In this document: positions 16,718-44,758 of the stretch, piece by piece | How positions within the stretch are numbered: position 1 is the first letter of the stretch | How the letters are laid out: every line of letters begins with the position of its first letter | Origin: Chryseobacterium camelliae | GTDB taxonomy: Bacteria > Bacteroidota > Bacteroidia > Flavobacteriales > Weeksellaceae | Assembly: GCF_030818575.1 (NCBI RefSeq) | Contig: NZ_JAUTAL010000001.1 | Location: forward strand, 3,162,001 to 3,226,000 | Length of the DNA: 64,000 nt | Reading direction: 5' to 3' | Program-made: the position numbers and the translations under genes | The notes under the pieces: generated by a model | The model's database searches: none | Seen by the model: only the letters and a program-made list of their open reading frames with translations | Told to the model about the DNA's origin: nothing

Positions 16718-19700
16718 ATGAAGAAAATTCTATCTTTTATATTCCTGTTTTTTGTTTTCATCTGTACTTTTGCCCAGCTGGACAGGGAACACTGGTTTGC
16801 ACCTATGGTAGACAGGACTACAGCGACGAATCCTTACCAGAGACTGTACCTGTCCACCAACAGAACAACACCGTTTCCGGTAAGCATTTATAACAATAAT
16901 ATCCTAATCGGTACGGTAACAATCAGTAAAAACAATCCTCAGAAATTTGACGTACTCAGGAATTATATCATTACTACTTTACAGACGGACCTTTTTACTC
17001 CTACAACAAAAGGACTGTATCTGAAAGCGGAGTTTCCTTTTTACGCCAACCTCCGGTTTTCTGTTATGAATCATGCCGAAATCATTACATCCAAAGGAAT
17101 TCCTTCTACCGGTAAAAATTTCTATGTAGCTACTGCTCCTATCAGCGTAAACAACCAGATCCTGAATTTTATGACCAGCGTGCTGGCAACGGAGGACAAT
17201 ACCACGGTAACCATAACCGGCTATAAAAATACGGTTCAGTTTTCCAACGGAACAACCGGAGCAACCAATCCCACGCTTACATTTACTTTGAATAAAGGCC
17301 AGTCTTACATTATAGACGGTATTGGTACTATTGCAGGAAATTTCAATGGCTTTATCGGAGCGCATATTACTTCCACCAAGCCGGTCAATATTACGAACGG
17401 AAATTTTAACGGTCAATATGCAGGAAGTTTCCAGAACAATTCGGACATCCTGATGGACCAGTCCGTCCCTGTGGAAAGGCTGGGGAATGAATTTGCCCTG
17501 GTAAAAGGAAACGGAAGTATAGGCTCCAATATGGAAGGTGCCATCATCATTGCTACAGAAGATAATACCCAAATATTCGTCAATAACGAAACGGTTGCGC
17601 TGACCACTTTAAATACGGGGCAGTATTTTGTTGTCCCGGATTCAAAATACCAGCTTCACGGCAGCAGTCACTACAACCTGTACATCAGGACCTCCAAAAA
17701 TGCTTATGTGTATCAGATCCTGGCTGGCGATTCCAATCCTTCCAATGAAGTGGCCACCGGCGGCTTTAATTTTATTCCTGCGCTCAACTGTTACCTGCCC
17801 AAGAAGATTGACGAATTGGGACTGATCAATGAAAATTTTGTCTACTCTATCAATAACCCTTCTGGTATCCTGAATATTCCCACTAAGCTGAACCTGATCA
17901 CCGAAAGAGGCGCTGTCGTTAACGTCAATGGTGCCGTACCTCCTGTTTCTACAGGTCCCTTTGATATGACAGGAACCAATAATTGGGTTACCTACGGAAT
18001 CCCCAATGTAACAGGGACACTTACGATTACTTCAACCAAAGCGATTACAGCAGGAATTACGGCAGGAACAGACGCTGTGGGTTACGGCGGTTTCTTTGCG
18101 GGCTTTCCTACCCAGCCAGTCATCCTGAAATCCGGTGGCGATTGTGCGCCGGGGATAGTTCTTACTGTAGACCCTATAATCTACGACACGTACCAGTGGT
18201 TTGTAAACAATACGCCCATCCCCGGGGCTACATCATCTTCCTACACGCCTACCCAATCCGGATATTATACCTGTTCGGTAACCATGGGAAGCTGTGCCCC
18301 GCTGATCACTGAAAAATTTAAGGTCTTAAATTGCACCAAACAGAGTACTGCCATCTATGATGTATGTACTTCCAAAACCATAACTCCGGCATTCAGCAGT
18401 TCAACACAGACTCCGGTTCCTTCCACAGCTGCGATTACCACAGCTCCAACGTTGGGAACAGCTACCGTAAATCCAGCGACAGGTGTTATCACCTACATCG
18501 TAAATAATCCGGGAACAACCGGAACCGACACTTTTACCTACACTTTCTGCGGTAATAACATCGACTTTCCGGATTGTGAAACGGTTACTGTAAACATCAA
18601 TATTCAGGTCCTAACCGTAACCAACGCTTCACTCTCTGCCTGCACAGTCAATGGCCAGGGAACTTTTAACCTGACTACCGCCAATGTCACCTCCAGTTCC
18701 GGGACAACCGTTACTTATTACCCTACATTAACAGATGCACAGAACGAAAATCCAGCTGCACTGATCACAACCCCTACAGCGTACACAGCCGCTAACGGTA
18801 CGATCATATATGCAGTGGTAAAAAATAACCTGGACTGTAAAAGCATTGCCCAGATTACCCTTACCCTCTTCCCTCTGGCAGTAGTAACAGAAAACTACAC
18901 AGGAGCATTTTGCGATGATAACCTTGACGGAACCGTTACCATAACACTATCAGACATTACTGCTATTGTCCTGAACAACCCTTCGTATTTTACCAATGTC
19001 CGGTATTATGCTAATCTTAGCGACGCTACAGCAGGCAATAATAATATCCTGCCCAATACCTGGAGCTATACGACAGCGACAACGATTTACATCCGGGTAG
19101 AGTCTCCGAACGGATGTGCACCGGTAATTAAACCACTGAATTTTACGATAGGATCGAAAATTCCATTACAGAAAACCTCTCTGTCCATAAGTGTCTGTGA
19201 TGATGACCTGGATGGGATAAAACAGGTCAGCCTTTCGTCTTATATCAGCCAGTTTACTACAGACCCCGCCGTTACAGTAACTTATCATGGAAGTCTTCAG
19301 GAAGCACAGAATGATGTGAATCCGCTGAACAATCCTATCAATCTGACAGGATCACAGACTATATATGTAAGATTTGAAAAAACCGGTGTCTGCCCTAATA
19401 TTGCTTCCATTAATGTTACCATTAAAATCCCTAAAAAATCCGATCTTCTCACTGACCAGGTGATCTGCCCCAAAGCTAAGACCAACCTGGATGCAGGACC
19501 AAATTTTGAAAGCTATCATTGGAGCACAGGAGCGACGTCACAGTCTATCACCAATGTTCCTGCCGGAAATTATTGGGTAGACCTTACCTATCAGGGATGT
19601 GTATACCGGCAACATGTATCGGTTACCGAATCTCAGCTTCCGGTAATTACGTCTATAGAAATCAATGGCCAGGTAGTAACGGTAGGCGCAAGCGGCGGTA

Positions 19701-20116
19701 ATCCTCCGTATGAATATTCACTGGACGGAGTGACATGGCAGAGTTCGAACGTTTTCAATAATGTACCGAGAGGAAACCATACGTTGTATGTCAGGGATTC
19801 CAAACGCTGCGAGGATGTGACAAGAACCTTCGTGATCATTAACCTGATCAATACCATCACGCCTAATGGTGACGGTACTAATGATGACATAGACTATTCT
19901 GCCCTGATGAACAATAAAAACCTTGAATTCAGAATTTTTGACCGGTATGGTGCAGAAGTTTTCAGGGGCACACCTTCTAACTGGTATACATGGGATGGCA
20001 ATATGGGCGGAAGACCTGTAAATACAGCAACATACTGGTACTTTATCAGCTGGACGGAACTTGGCGGAACCACCACGGTTAAATATACCAGCTGGCTGCT
20101 GGTAAAACATAGATAA
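16718..20116 (+). CDS. Giant secreted protein, IgGFc-binding-like N-terminus and T9SS type B sorting domain (tandem copy 4)
   Basis: 1132 aa, with a signal peptide ending near residue 20 (ICTFAQ). It is built like copy 1: IgGFc-like region ~20-460, Ig-like ~488-517 (YQWFVNN), CTSKTITPAFSS module ~544-630, a CTVNGQGTFNLTTANV module ~641, two acidic CDDNLDG / CDDDLDG modules (~731 and ~827), WSTGATSQSI ~930, SprB-like ~990 (GGNPPYEYSLDG), and type B sorting domain ~1043-1132 (ITPNGDGTNDD ... YTSWLLVKHR). Copies 1 and 4 also share LDTEHW/LDREHWFAPM at the mature N-terminus, while 2 and 3 share RDTEHW/RDTDHW. The acidic loops may bind calcium (inference). Own promoter; no terminator hairpin seen after the stop. 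Confidence 0.9.
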   Translation: MKKILSFIFLFFVFICTFAQLDREHWFAPMVDRTTATNPYQRLYLSTNRTTPFPVSIYNNNILIGTVTISKNNPQKFDVLRNYIITTLQTDLFTPTTKGLYLKAEFPFYANLRFSVMNHAEIITSKGIPSTGKNFYVATAPISVNNQILNFMTSVLATEDNTTVTITGYKNTVQFSNGTTGATNPTLTFTLNKGQSYIIDGIGTIAGNFNGFIGAHITSTKPVNITNGNFNGQYAGSFQNNSDILMDQSVPVERLGNEFALVKGNGSIGSNMEGAIIIATEDNTQIFVNNETVALTTLNTGQYFVVPDSKYQLHGSSHYNLYIRTSKNAYVYQILAGDSNPSNEVATGGFNFIPALNCYLPKKIDELGLINENFVYSINNPSGILNIPTKLNLITERGAVVNVNGAVPPVSTGPFDMTGTNNWVTYGIPNVTGTLTITSTKAITAGITAGTDAVGYGGFFAGFPTQPVILKSGGDCAPGIVLTVDPIIYDTYQWFVNNTPIPGATSSSYTPTQSGYYTCSVTMGSCAPLITEKFKVLNCTKQSTAIYDVCTSKTITPAFSSSTQTPVPSTAAITTAPTLGTATVNPATGVITYIVNNPGTTGTDTFTYTFCGNNIDFPDCETVTVNINIQVLTVTNASLSACTVNGQGTFNLTTANVTSSSGTTVTYYPTLTDAQNENPAALITTPTAYTAANGTIIYAVVKNNLDCKSIAQITLTLFPLAVVTENYTGAFCDDNLDGTVTITLSDITAIVLNNPSYFTNVRYYANLSDATAGNNNILPNTWSYTTATTIYIRVESPNGCAPVIKPLNFTIGSKIPLQKTSLSISVCDDDLDGIKQVSLSSYISQFTTDPAVTVTYHGSLQEAQNDVNPLNNPINLTGSQTIYVRFEKTGVCPNIASINVTIKIPKKSDLLTDQVICPKAKTNLDAGPNFESYHWSTGATSQSITNVPAGNYWVDLTYQGCVYRQHVSVTESQLPVITSIEINGQVVTVGASGGNPPYEYSLDGVTWQSSNVFNNVPRGNHTLYVRDSKRCEDVTRTFVIINLINTITPNGDGTNDDIDYSALMNNKNLEFRIFDRYGAEVFRGTPSNWYTWDGNMGGRPVNTATYWYFISWTELGGTTTVKYTSWLLVKHR

Positions 20117-21248: not shown

Positions 21249-22028
21249 ATGAGAAAATTTATTTTAATCTTCAGCACGGTACTGTTTACCGGTCTTTCTG
21301 CCCAGAAAAAGGGCAAGGACTACAGTGATATCTTAAAAAGCAAAAATATCTACGAAATCAATGCCTTTCTCAGGGATGCCCATCCCGATGATCCCCGCAG
21401 GTCTGTCCTAAAGCCACGGGTAATGGAAATGATGAAGGAGTATATCAAAAATGCCCATCCTGCCGACCAGAAAGTCAAACAGATGCAGGAATGGCTGGCG
21501 ATGCTCAAAAGAAGGCCGTCCACAAAAATTACCTTTGATGAGATGAATGCGATCATTAGGCAGAAACAGATCGCCAAGTATAAAGCTGAGCTGGCTGCCA
21601 AACAGCCTACAGTAGCATACACGCCCAGCAATCCCAGCAATGCCATTGTTACCGGGGCAGAAGCAGCGAGTACTGCGGCTATACCGGATGCAGAAGCAGA
21701 AGAATTCAATATGCTGATGACCGTATCTCCGGTAGAACACAAAAATAAAACGGTTAAGATCCTTAATTCCCTGTTTGATAATGATCCGATGAGCAAAGAA
21801 TGTATTGTCCTGATAGAAAATAAATCAGACTGTAACATTATCATGCGGATGGAAGGTATCGGTACCATTAAATACAGGCTTCCTATCCCTGCCCGCAGTG
21901 ATAATTCCATAGTAGTGCAAAAAGGTGACTACCTGTTTACCAGTATCGTATGTGGTGCTCAGTATGCTTCCCAGAAAACCATTCAGAAACCCGTGATGGT
22001 TTCTCTCGGCACATCAGCCTCAAAATAA
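21249..22028 (+). CDS. Exported DUF6759-like protein (paralogue 2 of 4)
   Basis: 259 aa with a signal peptide (MRKFILIFSTVLFTGLSAQ). The N-terminal half holds HPDDPRRSVLKPRVMEM, a segment repeated almost unchanged in paralogue 3 (YPDDPRRSILKPKLIAL) and apparently helical. An Ala-rich linker follows (~115-150). The C-terminal ~85 residues are the shared domain: LFDNDPMSKE, SDCNIIMRMEG and IVCGAQYASQK, with the two conserved cysteines. The protein is exported to the periplasm or surface; no catalytic motif is visible. It is followed by trmB with its own promoter 43 bp on, so it is probably not a functional partner of trmB. Confidence 0.75.
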   Translation: MRKFILIFSTVLFTGLSAQKKGKDYSDILKSKNIYEINAFLRDAHPDDPRRSVLKPRVMEMMKEYIKNAHPADQKVKQMQEWLAMLKRRPSTKITFDEMNAIIRQKQIAKYKAELAAKQPTVAYTPSNPSNAIVTGAEAASTAAIPDAEAEEFNMLMTVSPVEHKNKTVKILNSLFDNDPMSKECIVLIENKSDCNIIMRMEGIGTIKYRLPIPARSDNSIVVQKGDYLFTSIVCGAQYASQKTIQKPVMVSLGTSASK

Positions 22029-36741: not shown

Positions 36742-37887
36742 TTAAGGAATAAAGTATTCTATTTCTTTAGCATAAGCATAGTCGCCAAAATCCTGATTGT
36801 CTTTAGATGAGATTTCTCCCTTGAATCTTAAAAGTTTTATGATTTTATCTTTTGTTTTTAAATAAACAACAGCATGTTGTTTATCCTTTTCTAACTCGAT
36901 AATGAAATTACTATACGCAAATTTCTCATTAGCCTGATAAGTTTCATCAAATAATCTTTTTAATGTTTCAGGCATTACTATGTTAGTATCATAATACGTT
37001 CCAGTGGATTTATCCTGCCATGAAACTGATAAATGTACTGGAATTTTACCTTTGGAACCATTATTACTAAAGTCATTAATATCTTCTGATAGTTTTTCTG
37101 TATAAAATGAAGAATACCATCCATCTGCTGAAACAACGTAACTCCTATCTAATTTTGCATCCTTATTTTGTGTCACAAATTTTATGTCATAATAATATTC
37201 TTTTTCATTATTAGCCCAAGCCTTGGCTGGTGTTCCATGATGTTGCCAATAGGTATAATATTTACCCCAATTCTTAAAATTTCTTAACTGGTATTCATCA
37301 TTAGCAGTACTATCGTATCGCCCTTTTAATTGTGCTTTTAAAATTTCTACCTTGTCAAAGTCTCCATTTCCTTCGAACCAAATTTTTATCCAACCTTTAG
37401 GCGCCATTCCTACAATCAACTGAAAATTAGAGTTATCTAATTTTTTCGCTTTATTATCTATTTTGTGTTTAATACGAGATCGCTCATTAAAAAGAGAAAA
37501 AATTTTCTTCTTAGGCAATTGCAATACTCCTTCATAAATAAAATTGTTTTCTCCGCTAGAATAATGTATATATACATTTTCAGGTAATACTTTGTATTTA
37601 TCTCCTGTTATAAAATTTCCTGCAGTATCCCCCCAACCGGGATCTATTCCTGTTAGGACACTTGCCGTAGCACCTCCTTGGTTAAACTTTACAAGTATAT
37701 TGCTCGCAGGGTAAAATTTTGGAGCAGAAATTCCTGCAGACCAATTGTAATGGTCTGCAGGAATTTGTTTTTCAGTATTTTTACTACAACTCACAGTAAG
37801 AAAGGCACTAATGAGAGTTAATTTTATCTTATTTACATAATTTCGGTGTGTAGAATAAACGTTTGTAAGGTTGTATTGCACGTTCAT
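36742..37887 (-). CDS. DUF2931-family lipoprotein
   Basis: About 381 aa from ATG 37887; other in-frame ATGs at 37941, 37920, 37914 and 37899 exist and none stands out. A hydrophobic stretch LTLISAFLTVSC forms a lipobox, but the n-region before it is unusually long (~20 residues), as if the original start near it had been lost. The core has family features: HYNWSAGISAPKFYP, DPGWGDT, MAPKGWIKIWFEG, and ADGWYSSFYTEKL. DUF2931 proteins are known next to type VI secretion genes in Bacteroidota, though their role is unknown. AT-rich, like its neighbours. The 5' end overlaps a degenerate reading frame. Confidence 0.65.
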   Translation of the reverse strand: MNVQYNLTNVYSTHRNYVNKIKLTLISAFLTVSCSKNTEKQIPADHYNWSAGISAPKFYPASNILVKFNQGGATASVLTGIDPGWGDTAGNFITGDKYKVLPENVYIHYSSGENNFIYEGVLQLPKKKIFSLFNERSRIKHKIDNKAKKLDNSNFQLIVGMAPKGWIKIWFEGNGDFDKVEILKAQLKGRYDSTANDEYQLRNFKNWGKYYTYWQHHGTPAKAWANNEKEYYYDIKFVTQNKDAKLDRSYVVSADGWYSSFYTEKLSEDINDFSNNGSKGKIPVHLSVSWQDKSTGTYYDTNIVMPETLKRLFDETYQANEKFAYSNFIIELEKDKQHAVVYLKTKDKIIKLLRFKGEISSKDNQDFGDYAYAKEIEYFIP

Positions 37888-38120
37888 TTTGGTTTTCATT
37901 AAATCGAGGTTCATTAGCATATAACCTTCCGATATGATCAAGCCTATCAGAGATTGTACTGCCGAAGTACTTATCCATTTGATCTTTTGTTAATCTTCCC
38001 GTATAACTTGCTGATAAATGTACAAATTTCGATACTATAGCCGTTAATTTTTTCAACTGTCAAAACATCGTCTTTATCAAGCATATTATATAATTTGAGC
38101 AAACTTGTTTTTATATTTTG
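37829..38120 (-). pseudogene. Degenerate gene remnant upstream of the DUF2931 gene
   Basis: Two overlapping minus-strand frames look like parts of one protein broken by a frameshift. One runs RRHQNIKTSLLKLYNMLDKD... through 38084 and stops at 37971. The other (38056-37829) gives SKFVHLSASYTGRLTKDQMD and on to YKRLFYTPKLCK. They meet around 38035-38045 at AC-rich/A-rich sequence. Neither has a convincing start. The second frame runs into the signal sequence of the DUF2931 gene. Likely the tail of a lost gene in the accessory block; family not recognised. Confidence 0.4.
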
Positions 38121-38170: not shown

Positions 38171-38854
38171 TTATTTATTTGGTGAAGGCGGCGGAGTATA
38201 CACTTTTCCCTTACAATTTTCATCTGGTAAAATGTCTTTTTTAAACATTTTCAAAATCAGATTTTCTTTTTCCATCGACCAATCTATATAATTCCATTCA
38301 TCATTAGAGAAATTATATCTATTTAAACCATTATCCGGAAACGCCATATATTTTTCAAATTTTCCATTCTTCTTAAATAAGAAAATTATTTTAGGATATT
38401 CAAACTGAATACAGTCACAACCAATATCTTCATGAAAGCTAGTTACTGCTCCGAAGGAATTCAAATAATAATGATTAAATAAAATATCAGAAAGTCTATC
38501 TCTTTCGGTTTTTGAAAGTAGTCGTTTTACATTGTGGTATTTTTCATCTATGTAGTTTCTAGGTTCATTGACATTTTTTACATAAACAGGATTTACAACA
38601 TAAATTGAATCATACTTATTGAATGGATAAAGTTTCATCCTATCATTAAATTGGATATTAAATATTCTTTTCAATTTTGGATAAACACCAACTTTAGGCA
38701 GTGGAGGTGGATTATTTTGCTTTATCCAATTCTGTTCTATTTGAAACTTATTACAGTCTTTGATACAATAAGACCTTCTTAAATCCTGTAAAGTTTTTTC
38801 TTGTGAAAAATATGCATATGGAATGAGCATAAGAACTAAAACTATATTTTTCAT
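38171..38854 (-). CDS. Exported protein, possible immunity-type partner
   Basis: 227 aa with a signal peptide (MKNIVLVLMLIPYAYFSQ). Mature protein has cysteines in YCIKDCNKF and DIGCDCIQFEYP, possibly two disulfides in the periplasm, and a proline-rich end (YTPPPSPNK). No enzyme motif. It is AT-rich and follows the 147-aa exported protein and the GH19 gene on the same strand, with a 177-bp gap and its own terminator. Small exported proteins of unknown family beside a wall hydrolase often protect the producer, but that role is only an inference here. Confidence 0.6.
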   Translation of the reverse strand: MKNIVLVLMLIPYAYFSQEKTLQDLRRSYCIKDCNKFQIEQNWIKQNNPPPLPKVGVYPKLKRIFNIQFNDRMKLYPFNKYDSIYVVNPVYVKNVNEPRNYIDEKYHNVKRLLSKTERDRLSDILFNHYYLNSFGAVTSFHEDIGCDCIQFEYPKIIFLFKKNGKFEKYMAFPDNGLNRYNFSNDEWNYIDWSMEKENLILKMFKKDILPDENCKGKVYTPPPSPNK

Positions 38855-39031: not shown

Positions 39032-39475
39032 TTATTTACATTTTTTTAAAAATATAGTCTTTTTATGATTATCATTATCCTCTACAAATATTGCATTATT
39101 AAAAAAATCTCTCTTTCCTGTCTGAGTATTATATAATCCTTTCCATTGCATAATTATTCCTCCTTTTGTTTTTTTTATAGTTGCAAATGAAACTGTCTTG
39201 GAAATATTTAATGAATCAATTTCTTTCTCCCATTTAGGAATAGGTTCATTATAAGAATAAAATAATTCATAAATCATTTTATTTTTCTTTACTATTGCAT
39301 TAACAAATATATTATTGTACACAGATATATAAGCTTTATCGTTGGAAATATCTAATATTTGATACGGATTATTACAATTCAACTTGTACTCACCATTACT
39401 TAATTTTTCTTGAGATTTACCAGTAAATGAGACCATAATTAAAATAGAAAAAATAATTTTCTTCATAAATATCAA
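39032..39475 (-). CDS. Small exported protein directly after the GH19 gene, candidate immunity protein
   Basis: 147 aa, signal peptide up to FTGKSQ (cleavage near residue 21). The mature ~125 residues alternate polar and hydrophobic strands (YQILDISNDKAYISVYNN, KMIYELFYSYNEPIP, GIIMQWKGLYN), as in a small beta-barrel. Two possible disulfide cysteines: Cys34 (KLNCNNP) and the Cys next to the C-terminus. It starts 6 bp after the GH19 stop, the tightest spacing in the block, so it is surely cotranscribed with it. The pairing suggests a periplasmic inhibitor of the GH19 enzyme; unproven. Confidence 0.6.
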   Translation of the reverse strand: MIFMKKIIFSILIMVSFTGKSQEKLSNGEYKLNCNNPYQILDISNDKAYISVYNNIFVNAIVKKNKMIYELFYSYNEPIPKWEKEIDSLNISKTVSFATIKKTKGGIIMQWKGLYNTQTGKRDFFNNAIFVEDNDNHKKTIFLKKCK

Positions 39476-39481
39476 TTTTAT

Positions 39482-40852
39482 TTAAACCTTAAAAACTCTT
39501 AATCCTTTTTCAAAGAATATTTTAGCATCCTTCCAGCCTGTAGTAGCACCATTAACTCTTCGTCTTATTTTTTTTATATTTTCTTCACTTGAAATTTTAA
39601 GTGTATCTGCTGTTTTCCATATTGTATGCTTTTCCCAAAATGCTAATGCTGAAAGTACGGCATATTTTGGTTCTTTGATTTTATCCGGAAATTTTTCCAA
39701 ATCAATATATTCTGTTGGGAAAATTTCTTGTAAAATCTCAGAAGCATCCTCATAATTCCCCCTTCCGGTAAGTTGTTTTAAGCCTCTCCCTCTATATTTA
39801 TAGCCATCTCCGCTTGCTTCATTACCATTACCATTACCTTTACCATTTTCCGCAGCATACATAAAGTTCAATAGCCTTTTCTGAGGATTATCATTACAAT
39901 AAATTTTTAATAATCCTTTTGCTTCTAATTTTTTTGCCCTATCTCCAAACACGGCTTTACAATTAGCTACTGTATATCTATGTACATCAGTTTCGACCAT
40001 CCAATCTGGGTTAATTCCTAAAGTTTCTGCACCTACTTGAGCAAAAAAATGAGCTTTTCTTAAAGGCGTATCCAAATGAATTGGGCTGCCACCAAACGTA
40101 TTTAAAAAGTTTACTATTTCTTGTCTAATTTTTCGATGTTTAGAATAAATACCAAAAATATCTTCAAGTTGTTTCAGCGTTATAATTTCACTTCCGTTCC
40201 CTATCTCAAAATAAGTTCCTTCAGAATTAGAAAAATTTTGCTCTCCCTGAGAATGATCAAAGTTAGAGAATTTAATCTCCGTATTTGGCTCATCCAGTAC
40301 CTCTGCATGAAAATACAAATATAGTTTCTTTTCTCTTGAGTTTTCTATAACTTTTTTCCATCTTTCGAATTCACTGTCACTTTCAGGTTTTAACAAAAAA
40401 CTTTTCCAAGCTAAGTTTTCCAATCTATTAGCATTTGCATATTTAGAAAAATAGTCTTGTCCATTTTCATCTTTATCTTTTGTACCTTTTCCTACAGTAA
40501 TAATAATACTTCCAACTCTGTCTTGATTCTTAAAAACTATAGGCTTATCTTTATCTGTAATCTGGTTTTCTTTTGCTTGCCTTATTTCAATTTTAAGCTT
40601 TTTGCCTATCAAGTTTTCTGTTATTGCGACCAAAAATATTTCTTCACCTAAATTAGCTTTATGGATTTCAGGAAAAAACTTTTTTTGCTTCAGTTGTCCA
40701 GCTGTGCTATTTTCAGAATCGCTAATTGTAGGTATAGAAAAATAAACATTAATAACTTTTTTTTCACCTTGGACAGAGATACTATTACTTCTCTTTTCTT
40801 CATCAGCCAAAGCCTTAGCAGCATATATTCCTATTGGTTTATAATTATACAT
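39482..40852 (-). CDS. GH19-type lysozyme/chitinase with a large N-terminal non-catalytic domain
   Basis: 456 aa, no signal peptide. Residues 1-~220 are a beta-rich domain of unrecognised type (VINVYFSIPTI, KLKIEIRQAKENQ, EKKLYLYFHAEVLDE). Residues ~225-456 match the GH19/endolysin fold: RKAHFFAQVGAETLG with the likely catalytic Glu276, a second Glu at 287, YRGRGLKQLTGRGNY (353-367), FPDKIKEPKYAVLSALAFWE, and RRRVNGATTGWKDA. It should cleave peptidoglycan or chitin. Lack of a Sec signal plus a large N-terminal domain suggests export by a contractile or other dedicated machine, or release on lysis. AT-rich, followed at 6 bp by a small exported protein. Confidence 0.8.
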   Translation of the reverse strand: MYNYKPIGIYAAKALADEEKRSNSISVQGEKKVINVYFSIPTISDSENSTAGQLKQKKFFPEIHKANLGEEIFLVAITENLIGKKLKIEIRQAKENQITDKDKPIVFKNQDRVGSIIITVGKGTKDKDENGQDYFSKYANANRLENLAWKSFLLKPESDSEFERWKKVIENSREKKLYLYFHAEVLDEPNTEIKFSNFDHSQGEQNFSNSEGTYFEIGNGSEIITLKQLEDIFGIYSKHRKIRQEIVNFLNTFGGSPIHLDTPLRKAHFFAQVGAETLGINPDWMVETDVHRYTVANCKAVFGDRAKKLEAKGLLKIYCNDNPQKRLLNFMYAAENGKGNGNGNEASGDGYKYRGRGLKQLTGRGNYEDASEILQEIFPTEYIDLEKFPDKIKEPKYAVLSALAFWEKHTIWKTADTLKISSEENIKKIRRRVNGATTGWKDAKIFFEKGLRVFKV

Positions 40853-40915: not shown

Positions 40916-43900
40916 TTATTTATTGATGATTGTTGTTAATTCTCTTGGTAATGTTGTAGAATCACCACTATGCGACAGCTGCGCAGTCGTATCCAAAGTG
41001 AAACTTGTTTCAAATTCCAGTTCTTTCGGATTCTCACAGTTCTTCGGATCATCTTCAGGGAAAATCGGAAGCGGTTGCTTCACCGGTAAACCTGTAGAAG
41101 ATTCCTGAAGGATGGTCAATGTAGTCGGCATTCTGGTGATCCAGTATTTCCCTTGAGGTTCTCCGGTAGGTTTTCTCATCTCGTCAACGATACTCATGTA
41201 CATCGGGTCTCCGATTACCGGAACCGCTCCTCCGTTCCAGATCAGTCCGGTTTCCATAAACAACTGTACAGCGGCTTCAAAACCGGGCTTCACAGTTACG
41301 ATAATCCTGGCCATTCCTGCCTGTAAGAAACTTCTGAACAATGGGTCCATGCTTTCCGTCAGGTAGAATTCCTGCCAGCTCTTACGGTTGGCCCAGTAGT
41401 AAGGATAGAACGTATAGTCCATGATCTCCCACTCAAAAGCCTGTTCCATGAATTTTGCCAGTGCAGTATATTTATCAAGCTCTTCACCCAGGTATACCTG
41501 GAAATTATCCATTCTGGTCGTATCTGCTGTTGCATTGGTGGTTTCCCTGCCTAATGTTGTTGAATCCAGGTAATTTTGCAACAGGTAAGCAATACAGTTA
41601 TGCTTCAGTGTATCATGTTCCATATAGCGGTAGAAATTCCCCTGTCTTTCTTTCGCTGCTGCTTCTTTTTCTTTTTGTTCAGCATCCAGTTTGGCCTGCT
41701 CTTCCTGGAATTTAGCATAAGCATCTTCGTAGGCCTTGATAATGGCATTGAAGCTCTCTGTCTTCCATTTATTGATGTAGTCTTCACTCAGCTCACAGTT
41801 AACCGTTGCTTTCACGTTATAATGTCTGACGTTATGCCCTTTAACCTGGAAAGAAACTGTTCCTGTAAGGTTTAGTCCGGATGATGACCGGTCAAAGACA
41901 ATATCACCATAATAACTGTCTCCTGTAAATCCTCCTTTCAAATCAGAACAAGTCACTTCGGAATAACGGGCTCCTGACCAACCGCCACCTCTGTTTCGGG
42001 CAGAATCACAATGGAAGCTCGCATTTTTTGCAGCATAATTATCCGGGATCACAAAACTTGTATAATCTACTCCGAAATCATCATTGGTTTGAGGGACGCT
42101 CGCCGCATTATGGATGATTTGTTTGGTTGCAGGTAAGAATGCTTCCAGTTGTACTCCATAGATGTCCGCCCAGTGCTGGATTTGTGGGACTGTAGCAGAC
42201 TTCGGGTCAGCCATCGTCCACGGTTCCGGCGCTCTTCGGGGATCTACCGGTGCCGTAAGCACCTGGGCTTTCGCTACGGTAAGCGCCAGACGGTGTAATC
42301 TTGAAGGTTCAGGAACCATAAATTCAAACATGGTCCGCATACCATAGTTATAGATCTGGTTTTTATATTTGACGTCGATCCATCGGTATACACCGGTAAT
42401 GTGTTTTGGGGCTGCATTTGAAGAATCCGTAGTAGCGGTTATCTTACCTCTGTTATCATATTCATGCACATTAGTTTCGGTGTATTCTTTGATGATTTTC
42501 TGAACCCTTTCCTCTGAAATTTTAGTCAGAACCCTTTCCATGGCCCTTTCCGTAATTTCCTGAGATTTCATCATGGCCTGTCTGGTACTGTCATGTTGTG
42601 CGGTATTGTTAGCATAATCAGCTCCGATCTCAAACTTCATGCCACTATCATTACCGTAGCTGAATCTTGTATATGCTGTAATACTCTGCTGTTTATCAAT
42701 TTCCTTGGCAACTTCTGTCTGCATGTCCGTTCTGGAAGTCTTGGTAGTATCAGAAATTTTCTCGGTTTCCTGAGATTTGGATGTGGTATCCGTAATTTCA
42801 GAATATTCTCTTGATACGGAAGATTTATGCCTCAGCTCGCTGGCCATAACGTTTTCCACATTGGAAACTTCCCCGGGAACGTACGCATGGACACTCTGTA
42901 CCACTTTCAGGTAATCTGCCACTCCAAGTCTCTTGATCCCGAAGTTTTTACGCTTTTGAACGGTAACCGGTTCAGCATCATTTGCAACGGGTTTTAAAGT
43001 CAGCATACCGGTACGCAGGATATCTTCTTTAGGATACATCTGGCCGAGATCTGCATACGCTTCTCTTCCGTTTTCAAAGATAATTTCTATCCTGAAAGCC
43101 AGGCTGCCCCTGAATTTGTTAATTACACTTGCAGGTATGGTAATTTTGTTGTCAACGACCGGGATGTCATTAAAATATTCCACAAACGATCCCGCAGTAT
43201 CCGTAGTGGCGATAATTTTAACACTGGTGACATTCCATGAAACATCTTCCACTTCAAAAGAAAAATCCACAAATCCTCTGCTCCCGAAAAGGCTGGCGTT
43301 GTTGTGGGCCCAAAAACTGTAGGCCATCGGTGTTACTGCTCTTGCATTATTAACAGGTACGGAAGCACCACCTACATTAACATACTGTTGCTCCGGTAAA
43401 ACAGAATTCTCCAATGCGGTCTGTATTGAATCGGAAATATGAGTATTGACCGCATTCATGGCATCTGCGTAAGTCGCTACATCACTATCCAGGACCAGGC
43501 TTTGGGTACCGATTCTCATCGTATCGTCAGAAACGATCTCGGCTTTTGACGCCTCTGATGCATCGAATTTCAGCTCTCCGTCAGATTCAGCGAAAAGCTC
43601 CAGGAAGAGATCATAGGACTCTGGTGTAAGCTGCCTTTGTAAATCTGACAGGTTAATTTCTTTCTTATAGGTAAATTGAAATGGCTCTACTACATACTTT
43701 AAGAGGCCTTCATACAGCTTATCCTTTTCTTCTTCGGTCATTTCAGGCTTGATCTGATCTTCCACTTCCTGCAGTCTCTTTTTGTATTCTTCCAAACGGG
43801 CTCCGTTTTCTGTAATATAAGCAGCATACGCCTCCTGATAAGCCTGATGGCTGGATTTATAGTATTTCTTCTGGGCCTTTTCGAGTTCTGAATTCAGTTT

Positions 43901-44758
43901 CTCTAAAGCGGCTTTTCTTTGAACAGCCTTGCTAACCAATCCGTTGGCTCTGGCTTCAGATTCAAGCCTCTGAATCGTTCTTGCAGATAAAGCAGGTAAT
44001 GCGTCCGGAATAAAACCATCAATCTCTCCTGAGCCTCTGGAAGTACTGCCCGATCCTGCAACTCCGTCATCCTCTACAAAAAGCGATTGAGGAAGGACAA
44101 TCTTAGCTTCTTTCGCTTTTTCCATGGGCTTTTCACCATTGATTTTGATCATTTCATCAGAAGAAATATCAAGAGTGTTGGCAAAGGCAAGATGAAGCGC
44201 CATTAAAATATGGCTGATGGCTTCCTTTACGTAGAAATCACGCTGGGTTACAATCTGGAAAATATAATTATCCCAGAGCGTTTTGAAAATTTTAATACCA
44301 TCAGCAGTAAGCTCTTTATTGGAATCGATAAGGTTTGCGTAATAATTCTTGATATACATCCAGTCATTATCACTCAATGCTTCCCGTTTCGATATTTTAC
44401 GTCCAGCGATGAGAAGCTGCCCGAAAACCCCTTCTTCAATCACTTTTTCCGTTTCGAATCCGGCTGTGCTGAAACTGGCGGCAGTCCTTTGCATGGCGCC
44501 TAATTTTAAGGTTTTGGCAGCTCTTGTACTTACGGCCGTATCAAAATCACCTGTTACTTCCTTTGGCCTGTGAATAAATCCAAGGTTTCTTTTTTTAGTC
44601 TCGGTCAACTGTGGATTTCTCAAGCTGACAAATCTGAAAAGCGTCTGCGACGCATTATTTACTGGTTCCATACTATTGTTTGATGTGTTGATAATGCCTT
44701 TCCCAATAACAGACTCTCCTACAGTAAATTCTGTATATGTTGTATTATTTGTTGACAT
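40916..44758 (-). CDS. Large 1280-aa protein of unknown family, no signal peptide
   Basis: Not recognised with confidence. No signal peptide, no lipobox, no obvious membrane segment. Visible parts: a Thr/Asn-rich N-terminus; a Gly/Ser linker (residues ~232-245); a coiled coil (~262-350) rich in Glu/Lys/Ala; a beta-rich region (~470-600); a polar helical stretch rich in Ser, Thr, Glu and Lys (~630-765, including ENVMASELRHKSS). A block follows with YRWIDVKYKNQ and MFEFMVPEPS (~790-818). There is a cysteine-containing region (~915-990), a second coiled coil (~1000-1040), then a C-terminal part with FRSFLQAGMARIIVTVKPGF. This may be a large cytoplasmic or structural protein. Composition is that of the core chromosome, unlike the AT-rich block downstream. 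It is separated from GH19 by a hairpin and is divergent from a DUF4407 gene. Confidence 0.6.
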   Translation of the reverse strand: MSTNNTTYTEFTVGESVIGKGIINTSNNSMEPVNNASQTLFRFVSLRNPQLTETKKRNLGFIHRPKEVTGDFDTAVSTRAAKTLKLGAMQRTAASFSTAGFETEKVIEEGVFGQLLIAGRKISKREALSDNDWMYIKNYYANLIDSNKELTADGIKIFKTLWDNYIFQIVTQRDFYVKEAISHILMALHLAFANTLDISSDEMIKINGEKPMEKAKEAKIVLPQSLFVEDDGVAGSGSTSRGSGEIDGFIPDALPALSARTIQRLESEARANGLVSKAVQRKAALEKLNSELEKAQKKYYKSSHQAYQEAYAAYITENGARLEEYKKRLQEVEDQIKPEMTEEEKDKLYEGLLKYVVEPFQFTYKKEINLSDLQRQLTPESYDLFLELFAESDGELKFDASEASKAEIVSDDTMRIGTQSLVLDSDVATYADAMNAVNTHISDSIQTALENSVLPEQQYVNVGGASVPVNNARAVTPMAYSFWAHNNASLFGSRGFVDFSFEVEDVSWNVTSVKIIATTDTAGSFVEYFNDIPVVDNKITIPASVINKFRGSLAFRIEIIFENGREAYADLGQMYPKEDILRTGMLTLKPVANDAEPVTVQKRKNFGIKRLGVADYLKVVQSVHAYVPGEVSNVENVMASELRHKSSVSREYSEITDTTSKSQETEKISDTTKTSRTDMQTEVAKEIDKQQSITAYTRFSYGNDSGMKFEIGADYANNTAQHDSTRQAMMKSQEITERAMERVLTKISEERVQKIIKEYTETNVHEYDNRGKITATTDSSNAAPKHITGVYRWIDVKYKNQIYNYGMRTMFEFMVPEPSRLHRLALTVAKAQVLTAPVDPRRAPEPWTMADPKSATVPQIQHWADIYGVQLEAFLPATKQIIHNAASVPQTNDDFGVDYTSFVIPDNYAAKNASFHCDSARNRGGGWSGARYSEVTCSDLKGGFTGDSYYGDIVFDRSSSGLNLTGTVSFQVKGHNVRHYNVKATVNCELSEDYINKWKTESFNAIIKAYEDAYAKFQEEQAKLDAEQKEKEAAAKERQGNFYRYMEHDTLKHNCIAYLLQNYLDSTTLGRETTNATADTTRMDNFQVYLGEELDKYTALAKFMEQAFEWEIMDYTFYPYYWANRKSWQEFYLTESMDPLFRSFLQAGMARIIVTVKPGFEAAVQLFMETGLIWNGGAVPVIGDPMYMSIVDEMRKPTGEPQGKYWITRMPTTLTILQESSTGLPVKQPLPIFPEDDPKNCENPKELEFETSFTLDTTAQLSHSGDSTTLPRELTTIINK

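Follow-up and report, generated by a model that had tools for sequence, protein, structure and literature searches.

Comparative analysis of a 64,000-nucleotide stretch of the Chryseobacterium camelliae genome (contig NZ_JAUTAL010000001.1, positions 3,162,001 to 3,226,000; hereafter the window) indicates that the 1280-aa protein encoded at window positions 40916-44758, here called the carrier, is the invariant partner of a polymorphic, probably antibacterial toxin locus, an overall explanation to which we assign a probability of about 0.6. The assignment to polymorphic toxin loci is very probable and well supported; that the 1280-aa protein itself is the agent of delivery has slightly better than even odds, and its role and mechanism are what we infer from the loci compared. 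A dedicated, contractile-independent delivery protein is the reading that fits best, because intact carriers occur in genomes in which no type VI, tailocin or extracellular contractile injection system (eCIS) sheath marker was detected. The three genes on which the argument turns are:

40916..44758, minus strand: gene for the 1280-aa carrier, the constant member of the locus (reading of the open reading frame [ORF] and homologs)
39482..40852, minus strand: predicted variable effector, 456 aa (profile and structure-sequence matches)
39032..39475, minus strand: putative cognate immunity gene, 147 aa, with a hydrophobic signal-type N-terminus (position and hydrophobicity)

Exchange of the cassette downstream of the carrier

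Forty carrier loci were taken from GTDB genomes, nearly all of them from Chryseobacterium and its relatives. A same-strand gene directly followed the carrier in every chryseobacterial locus with downstream sequence (37/37), typically after a gap of 55-80 bp, and in nearly all of these loci a small gene came after it. The next genes of the compared loci fell into 18 groups, with no full-length similarity between groups. Of 93 pairs of carriers at least 80% identical, 77 had next genes without detectable similarity to each other; the carriers of loci L007 and L009, for example, share 95.7% identity and are followed by unrelated genes. The converse case was found in L020 and L041, with 93% identical effectors and 63% identical carriers. 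The guanine-plus-cytosine (GC) content of the effector gene was below that of the carrier in 36/36 loci, and in the window it amounts to 0.43 for the carrier and 0.22-0.31 for the genes that follow. Unrelated next genes behind near-identical carriers, the converse case and the GC offset together point to cassette exchange: as shown by comparative genomics, the putative effector/immunity cassette moves between loci independently of the carrier. The initial annotation had ascribed a core-like base composition to the carrier gene, in agreement with these values, and had concluded that the gene is not part of the AT-rich block next door. The latter conclusion failed, as the block corresponds to the variable effector/immunity cassette and appears functionally coupled to the carrier; in the window this cassette comprises the predicted peptidoglycan-hydrolase effector, its putative immunity gene and a putative orphan immunity gene.

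Comparative genomics likewise shows the putative carrier-effector pairing reaching a cyanobacterium. In Aulosira laxa, the gene after the carrier homolog is homologous to the Chryseobacterium effector of L031 (E = 2.5e-40), and the carrier cores of Aulosira and the window share about 19% identity. Partial carrier copies comprising the C-terminal region were found in or beside several loci elsewhere. A Flavobacterium-type locus (L129:12000-18001) harbors an array of truncated toxin-like fragments with the common sequence AAIKGGLRKSAKEVLEHADDVKK and a small gene after each, which is likely an orphan toxin/immunity store.

Putative effectors and immunity genes, and N-terminal tags

The window effector has the N-terminal tag MYNYKPIGIYAAKALADEE and a C-terminal half resembling endolysins and GH19-like peptidoglycan hydrolases (PHROG 181, E = 2.6e-40; PDB 8xcl and 9eoi, E about 3e-15). 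A second carrier locus of the source genome is followed by a gene with a Tox-MPTase4 domain (E = 2e-8), weakly matched also in L087, and other next genes matched reprolysin-type metalloproteases or contained a LysM domain. A nucleic-acid deaminase-like motif (HGE...PCVHC) was recognised by eye in the C-terminus of the 858-aa effector of L028, which had no match in Pfam. Also by eye, the effectors of L012 and L013 and a carrier-adjacent Tsukamurella gene (L050:16837-17922) show a common His-Gly/Cys pattern reminiscent of caspase-like peptidases. Many effectors beyond these contain no recognised domain, and no export signal was seen at effector N-termini.

Some of the small genes encode SUKH or MORN proteins, both of immunity type. 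Export or membrane signals, scored by maximal hydrophobicity in the first 28 residues, were present in none of the six loci with effectors of 858-913 aa and in 27 of the 31 whose effectors measure at most 673 aa, counts that involve a signal behind an internal start (L014), an ORF-calling overlap (L010) and broken ORFs (L037, L043). Several of the shorter effectors are predicted wall hydrolases or proteases. Such a split would follow if the target's periplasm were the site of action of short effectors and its cytosol that of long ones. The small genes look like immunity genes whose products would be exported with one class of effector and cytosolic with the other.

Of 49 next genes, 13 have the tag [IV]K[APN]LG, compared with 2 of 893 other ORFs (p = 4e-16), and those two ORFs are effectors themselves by position or tag. 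One tag on different toxins suggests a common docking site, for which the carrier is the obvious candidate partner.

The carrier protein and its swapped domain

The carrier gene, called from an uninterrupted minus-strand ORF with an ATG start and no internal stops, was confirmed by its conservation (nearest relative 94% identical, most others 52-74%) and by two full-length paralogs in the same genome. Its recognisable parts are:

44606..44641, minus strand: N-terminal motif LFRFVSLRNPQL, residues 40-51 (sequence reading)
43754..43984, minus strand: first coiled coil or long helix, residues about 259-335 (AlphaFold)
42989..43546, minus strand: beta-rich region, residues about 405-590 (AlphaFold)
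42239..42943, minus strand: near-invariant core, residues 606-840 (alignment)
41759..42151, minus strand: swapped beta-sandwich domain, residues about 870-1000 (structure matches and identity profile)
41645..41785, minus strand: second coiled coil, residues about 992-1038 (AlphaFold)
41069..41506, minus strand: conserved C-terminal region, residues 1085-1230 (alignment and partial copies)

Median pairwise identity reaches 86% in the core and 90% in the C-terminal region, and falls to 29% in residues 870-1000, which occur in about seven allelic types. The carriers of L020 and L025 are 95% identical outside this segment and 26% inside it, and those of L012 and L014 95 and 29%, respectively; conversely, the distant carriers of L014 and L020 share 72% identity outside and 89% inside. 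The segment is confidently predicted as a beta sandwich, and the only Foldseek matches of the carrier models were short ones of this sandwich to viral jelly rolls, tail-fibre domains and carbohydrate-binding domains. Comparative genomics thereby shows swapping of the beta-sandwich domain between loci, and the domain may bind the target.

The core contains the motifs GEVxxIEN...HITGVYRWID...NYGxRTMFEFMVPEPS, and a block singled out in the initial annotation as conserved-looking does lie within its approximately 235 residues; the C-terminal region is marked by FMEQAFEWE..YYW..DPLFRSFLQAGMARV..PGFE. In the N-terminal part, LFRFVSLRNPQL is the most conserved element, and the Flavobacterium and rhizobial homologs start similarly to the carrier (sequence reading). 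The AlphaFold model (mean pLDDT [predicted local distance difference test] of 57) has a helical N-terminal region and reproduces as long helices the two coiled coils, and also the beta-rich centre, that had been read from the sequence. The long polar helical zone proposed earlier was predicted, at low confidence, as two helices with a beta-hairpin between them. AlphaFold confidence was low across residues 592-832, and a second prediction with more distant relatives again gave a low-confidence core with a layout of helix, beta-hairpin and helix. The two predictions can be trusted for the helical N-terminal part, the beta regions and the coiled coils but not for the core; no mechanistic conclusion is drawn from the core model.

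Searches of Pfam, NCBIfam, PHROGs, PADLOC and PDB sequences returned no significant match to the carrier, in keeping with its first description as a protein of no recognised family. The absence of an export signal was upheld as well, since sequence reading detected no signal peptide at the N-terminus. Export as a type IX secretion system (T9SS) substrate was rejected, there being no Por_Secre_tail match in Pfam and no signal-like N-terminus on sequence reading.

Distribution of the carrier family

The source genome, a single contig of 4.19 Mb, encodes three carrier copies, the two others being 47% and 43% identical to that of the window. The carrier was present in 66 of 198 sampled Weeksellaceae genomes and in 17 of 395 genomes of the phylum sample. 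Farther afield, its C-terminal half (25-36% identity) was recovered in plasmid-borne 'hypothetical proteins' of Tsukamurella, Ensifer/Sinorhizobium, Cupriavidus, Streptomyces, Aulosira and the haloarchaeon Natronorubrum; a prophage-like contig whose lysis cassette we read as of Gram-positive type encodes it too. The core is common to the homologs from Actinomycetota, Pseudomonadota, Cyanobacteriota and haloarchaea, and the cross-phylum alignment has one conserved signature (GEVAHIEN, HG-DN, GVYRWVDK, NYGKRLMFEFMVPEPA, F-EQAFEW, YPYYW, DPLF-FL-AG-ARV). None of six tested family members had a significant Pfam match, no description of the family was found in the open-access literature, and a phage origin was rejected as 50,697 phage records contained no homolog. 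The carrier thus represents an unnamed, undescribed and widespread family. One locus, L038 (JASGCW010000010.1), is titled as a Limnohabitans metagenome-assembled genome; it groups with Bacteroidota, has Chryseobacterium-like genes and is probably misnamed or contaminated.

Contractile machines and alternative explanations

The carrier is unlikely to serve the Bacteroidota type VI secretion system (T6SSiii) as a cargo adaptor that attaches toxins to the spike and is launched by contraction of the apparatus. The source genome encodes a T6SSiii (TssR and TssD are present), and T6SS loci also contain variable effector and immunity genes, with immunity proteins exported where effectors target the wall, a pattern equally seen here. 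However, the T6SSiii marker TssR, present in 71 of the 198 genomes, does not track the carrier: among 50 sampled genomes of the genus, 39 had the carrier, 47 had TssR and 36 had both, against 36.7 expected by chance, counts by which T6SSiii dependence was rejected. In six genomes (G193, G127, G039, G010, G100 and G148) the carrier is intact while TssR, TssD, PF04984 and DUF2586 were not detected by profile, which is not proof of their absence; the same six have a toxin-like gene after the carrier, and a small gene comes next wherever enough downstream sequence is available. VgrG, PAAR or Hcp genes were not seen beside the carrier, and its homologs in Actinomycetota, a Gram-positive-type prophage and a haloarchaeon also speak against an adaptor, T6SS being not expected in Actinomycetota and archaea.

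The carrier could instead belong to the structure of a headless phage tail (tailocin), for instance as a protein of the baseplate or one that attaches fibres, and the toxins would then be passengers. In two IMG/VR records the carrier locus adjoins a headless module for a contractile tail, with genes for a DUF2586 sheath, a gp25-like protein and fibres, and fibre-like genes upstream of the carrier in many loci share with the tail fibres of these records the N-terminal motif P-x-Q-x-x-F-W-x-W-x-x-S-Y-x-H-K; the likeness of the beta domain to viral jelly rolls and tail-fibre domains agrees with this. We nevertheless regard a tailocin role as improbable. The DUF2586 sheath, found in 43 of the 198 genomes, coincides with the carrier in 10 against 14.3 expected, by which dependence on tailocins was rejected; neither PF04984 nor the DUF2586 sheath was found in the source genome, PF04984 was found in none of twelve tested carrier genomes, and the phage records lack homologs. 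The fibres may rather decorate the carrier complex. Headless contractile tail modules with a DUF2586 sheath are located at L091 and L092 (G584 and G585), that of L091 being flanked by a UmuC-like gene, like a chromosomal site with the carrier locus alone in other Chryseobacterium.

The initial annotation had suggested looking for consistent neighbours, such as a DUF4407 gene or contractile-system genes. DUF4407 lies, among the loci, only beside the window gene and its 94% identical twin in L016 and was discarded as a partner, and contractile genes adjoin the carrier only in the two IMG/VR records, with no co-occurrence with T6SSiii or DUF2586 sheaths. The accompanying notion of a structural or delivered protein survives in outline, stripped of these neighbours and of the separation from the AT-rich block.

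There is also little to recommend the 1280-aa protein as the toxin itself, for instance a pore-forming one, with the following genes as independent passengers at a recombination hot spot. The core layout of helix, beta-hairpin and helix, modelled with low confidence, also occurs in alpha-pore-forming toxins; however, toxin and immunity genes vary beside a nearly invariant core, the link of carrier and effector extends from Bacteroidota to Cyanobacteriota, and the next genes have common N-terminal tags. An intracellular conflict system (abortive infection or toxin-antitoxin) is very improbable: carrier and effector have no export signal on sequence reading, but the small genes beside shorter effectors are exported or membrane-bound, so that a toxin acting only inside its producer makes no sense, and PADLOC gave no match.

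Proposed mechanism

Under the preferred reading of a dedicated delivery protein, the effector would dock on the carrier via its N-terminal tag, and the complex would leave the producing cell through lysis or in some other way. It would then bind a rival cell through the variable beta sandwich and, where present, the fibre proteins encoded upstream, and the conserved carrier core would move the cargo across the outer membrane. Short effectors would stay in the periplasm, and long effectors with hydrophobic segments would reach the cytosol; the cargo of the window locus would be a cell-wall hydrolase. In its most general form, a contractile-free mode of toxin delivery in Bacteria and at least one archaeon, loaded through tags with interchangeable effectors and aimed by an interchangeable beta sandwich, the proposal is tentative.

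Several points weigh against the preferred reading. Toxicity, immunity, binding and export are predictions from comparative genomics, and we know of no secretion route for either carrier or effector. The T6SSiii of the source genome could be the exporter here. The core, with its putative translocation fold, is modelled only at low confidence. Finally, the genes after distant homologs may or may not be toxins, and the third carrier copy of the source genome (at 1025 kb) has no obvious effector downstream.

To our knowledge, the route out of the cell is not known for many orphan polymorphic toxins of Bacteroidota and Actinomycetota. A partner family that precedes toxins, also in genomes with no detected contractile system, is a concrete candidate for that export route; a single profile of it makes many unannotated toxin/immunity pairs findable, and its swappable domain may set the target range.

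Relationship to known systems

The loci share with polymorphic toxin systems (PMC3482391) toxin domains that vary between close relatives, recognised toxin domains such as Tox-MPTase4, adjacent immunity genes, SUKH and MORN partners, and truncated or orphan cassettes. A constant trafficking region at the N-terminus of the toxin was not found: the constant part is mostly a separate gene, Chryseobacterium effectors sharing only short N-terminal tags, whereas in those systems it is the N-terminal domain of the toxin polypeptide. A further difference is that none of the searched libraries contains a model of the carrier family. The TANFOR class of Bacteroidetes (PMC7073777) is linked to a Sec signal and T9SS, neither of which the carrier shows, and membership was rejected.

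T6SS effector/immunity modules with an adaptor or VgrG resemble the carrier loci in having effector and immunity genes behind a conserved partner gene, and exported immunity proteins with wall-targeting effectors, but the carrier has no adjacent T6SS genes and does not co-occur with T6SSiii markers. With eCIS and tailocins the family has in common short N-terminal cargo tags, nearby fibre-like genes and a patchy occurrence that extends to archaea, Streptomyces and cyanobacteria; unlike them, it is encoded in a source genome where their sheath family was not found, and PF04984 was found in 0/12 carrier genomes. Tc toxin complexes offer only the idea of a large carrier with an exchangeable toxic part: no sequence match to solved structures, no Rhs or Tc domain and no homology to TcA, TcB, TcC or Rhs were found in Pfam and PDB sequences.

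Other carrier loci and neighbouring genes

The second carrier locus of the source genome (C1 3771000-3796000; L045, L046) comprises M15 peptidase, patatin and DUF2589 genes, two genes of unknown function, a gene for a 1678-aa fibre-like protein, and the Tox-MPTase4 effector with an 88-aa follower; a literature search on DUF2589 found nothing useful. The third copy (C1 1023000-1029100; L047, L048) encodes 1309 aa and has two fibre-like genes upstream. Patatin genes adjoin carriers in Chryseobacterium and Natronorubrum; many loci, that of the window among them, have no patatin or M15 peptidase genes. Behind the window's effector and immunity genes lie two further genes:

38171..38854, minus strand: putative orphan immunity gene, 227 aa, exported (homology)
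36742..37941, minus strand: DUF2931 protein, 399 aa (Pfam and homologs)

The former is 47-49% identical to a gene following another effector in L013 and L033. Homologs of the latter occur in L016, L029, L031 and twice in L036, in most cases downstream of the effector and immunity genes; whether it is an accessory or a further immunity gene is uncertain. Elsewhere in the window, the ORFs at 16718-20116 and 21249-22028 each belong to a group of four similar window ORFs.

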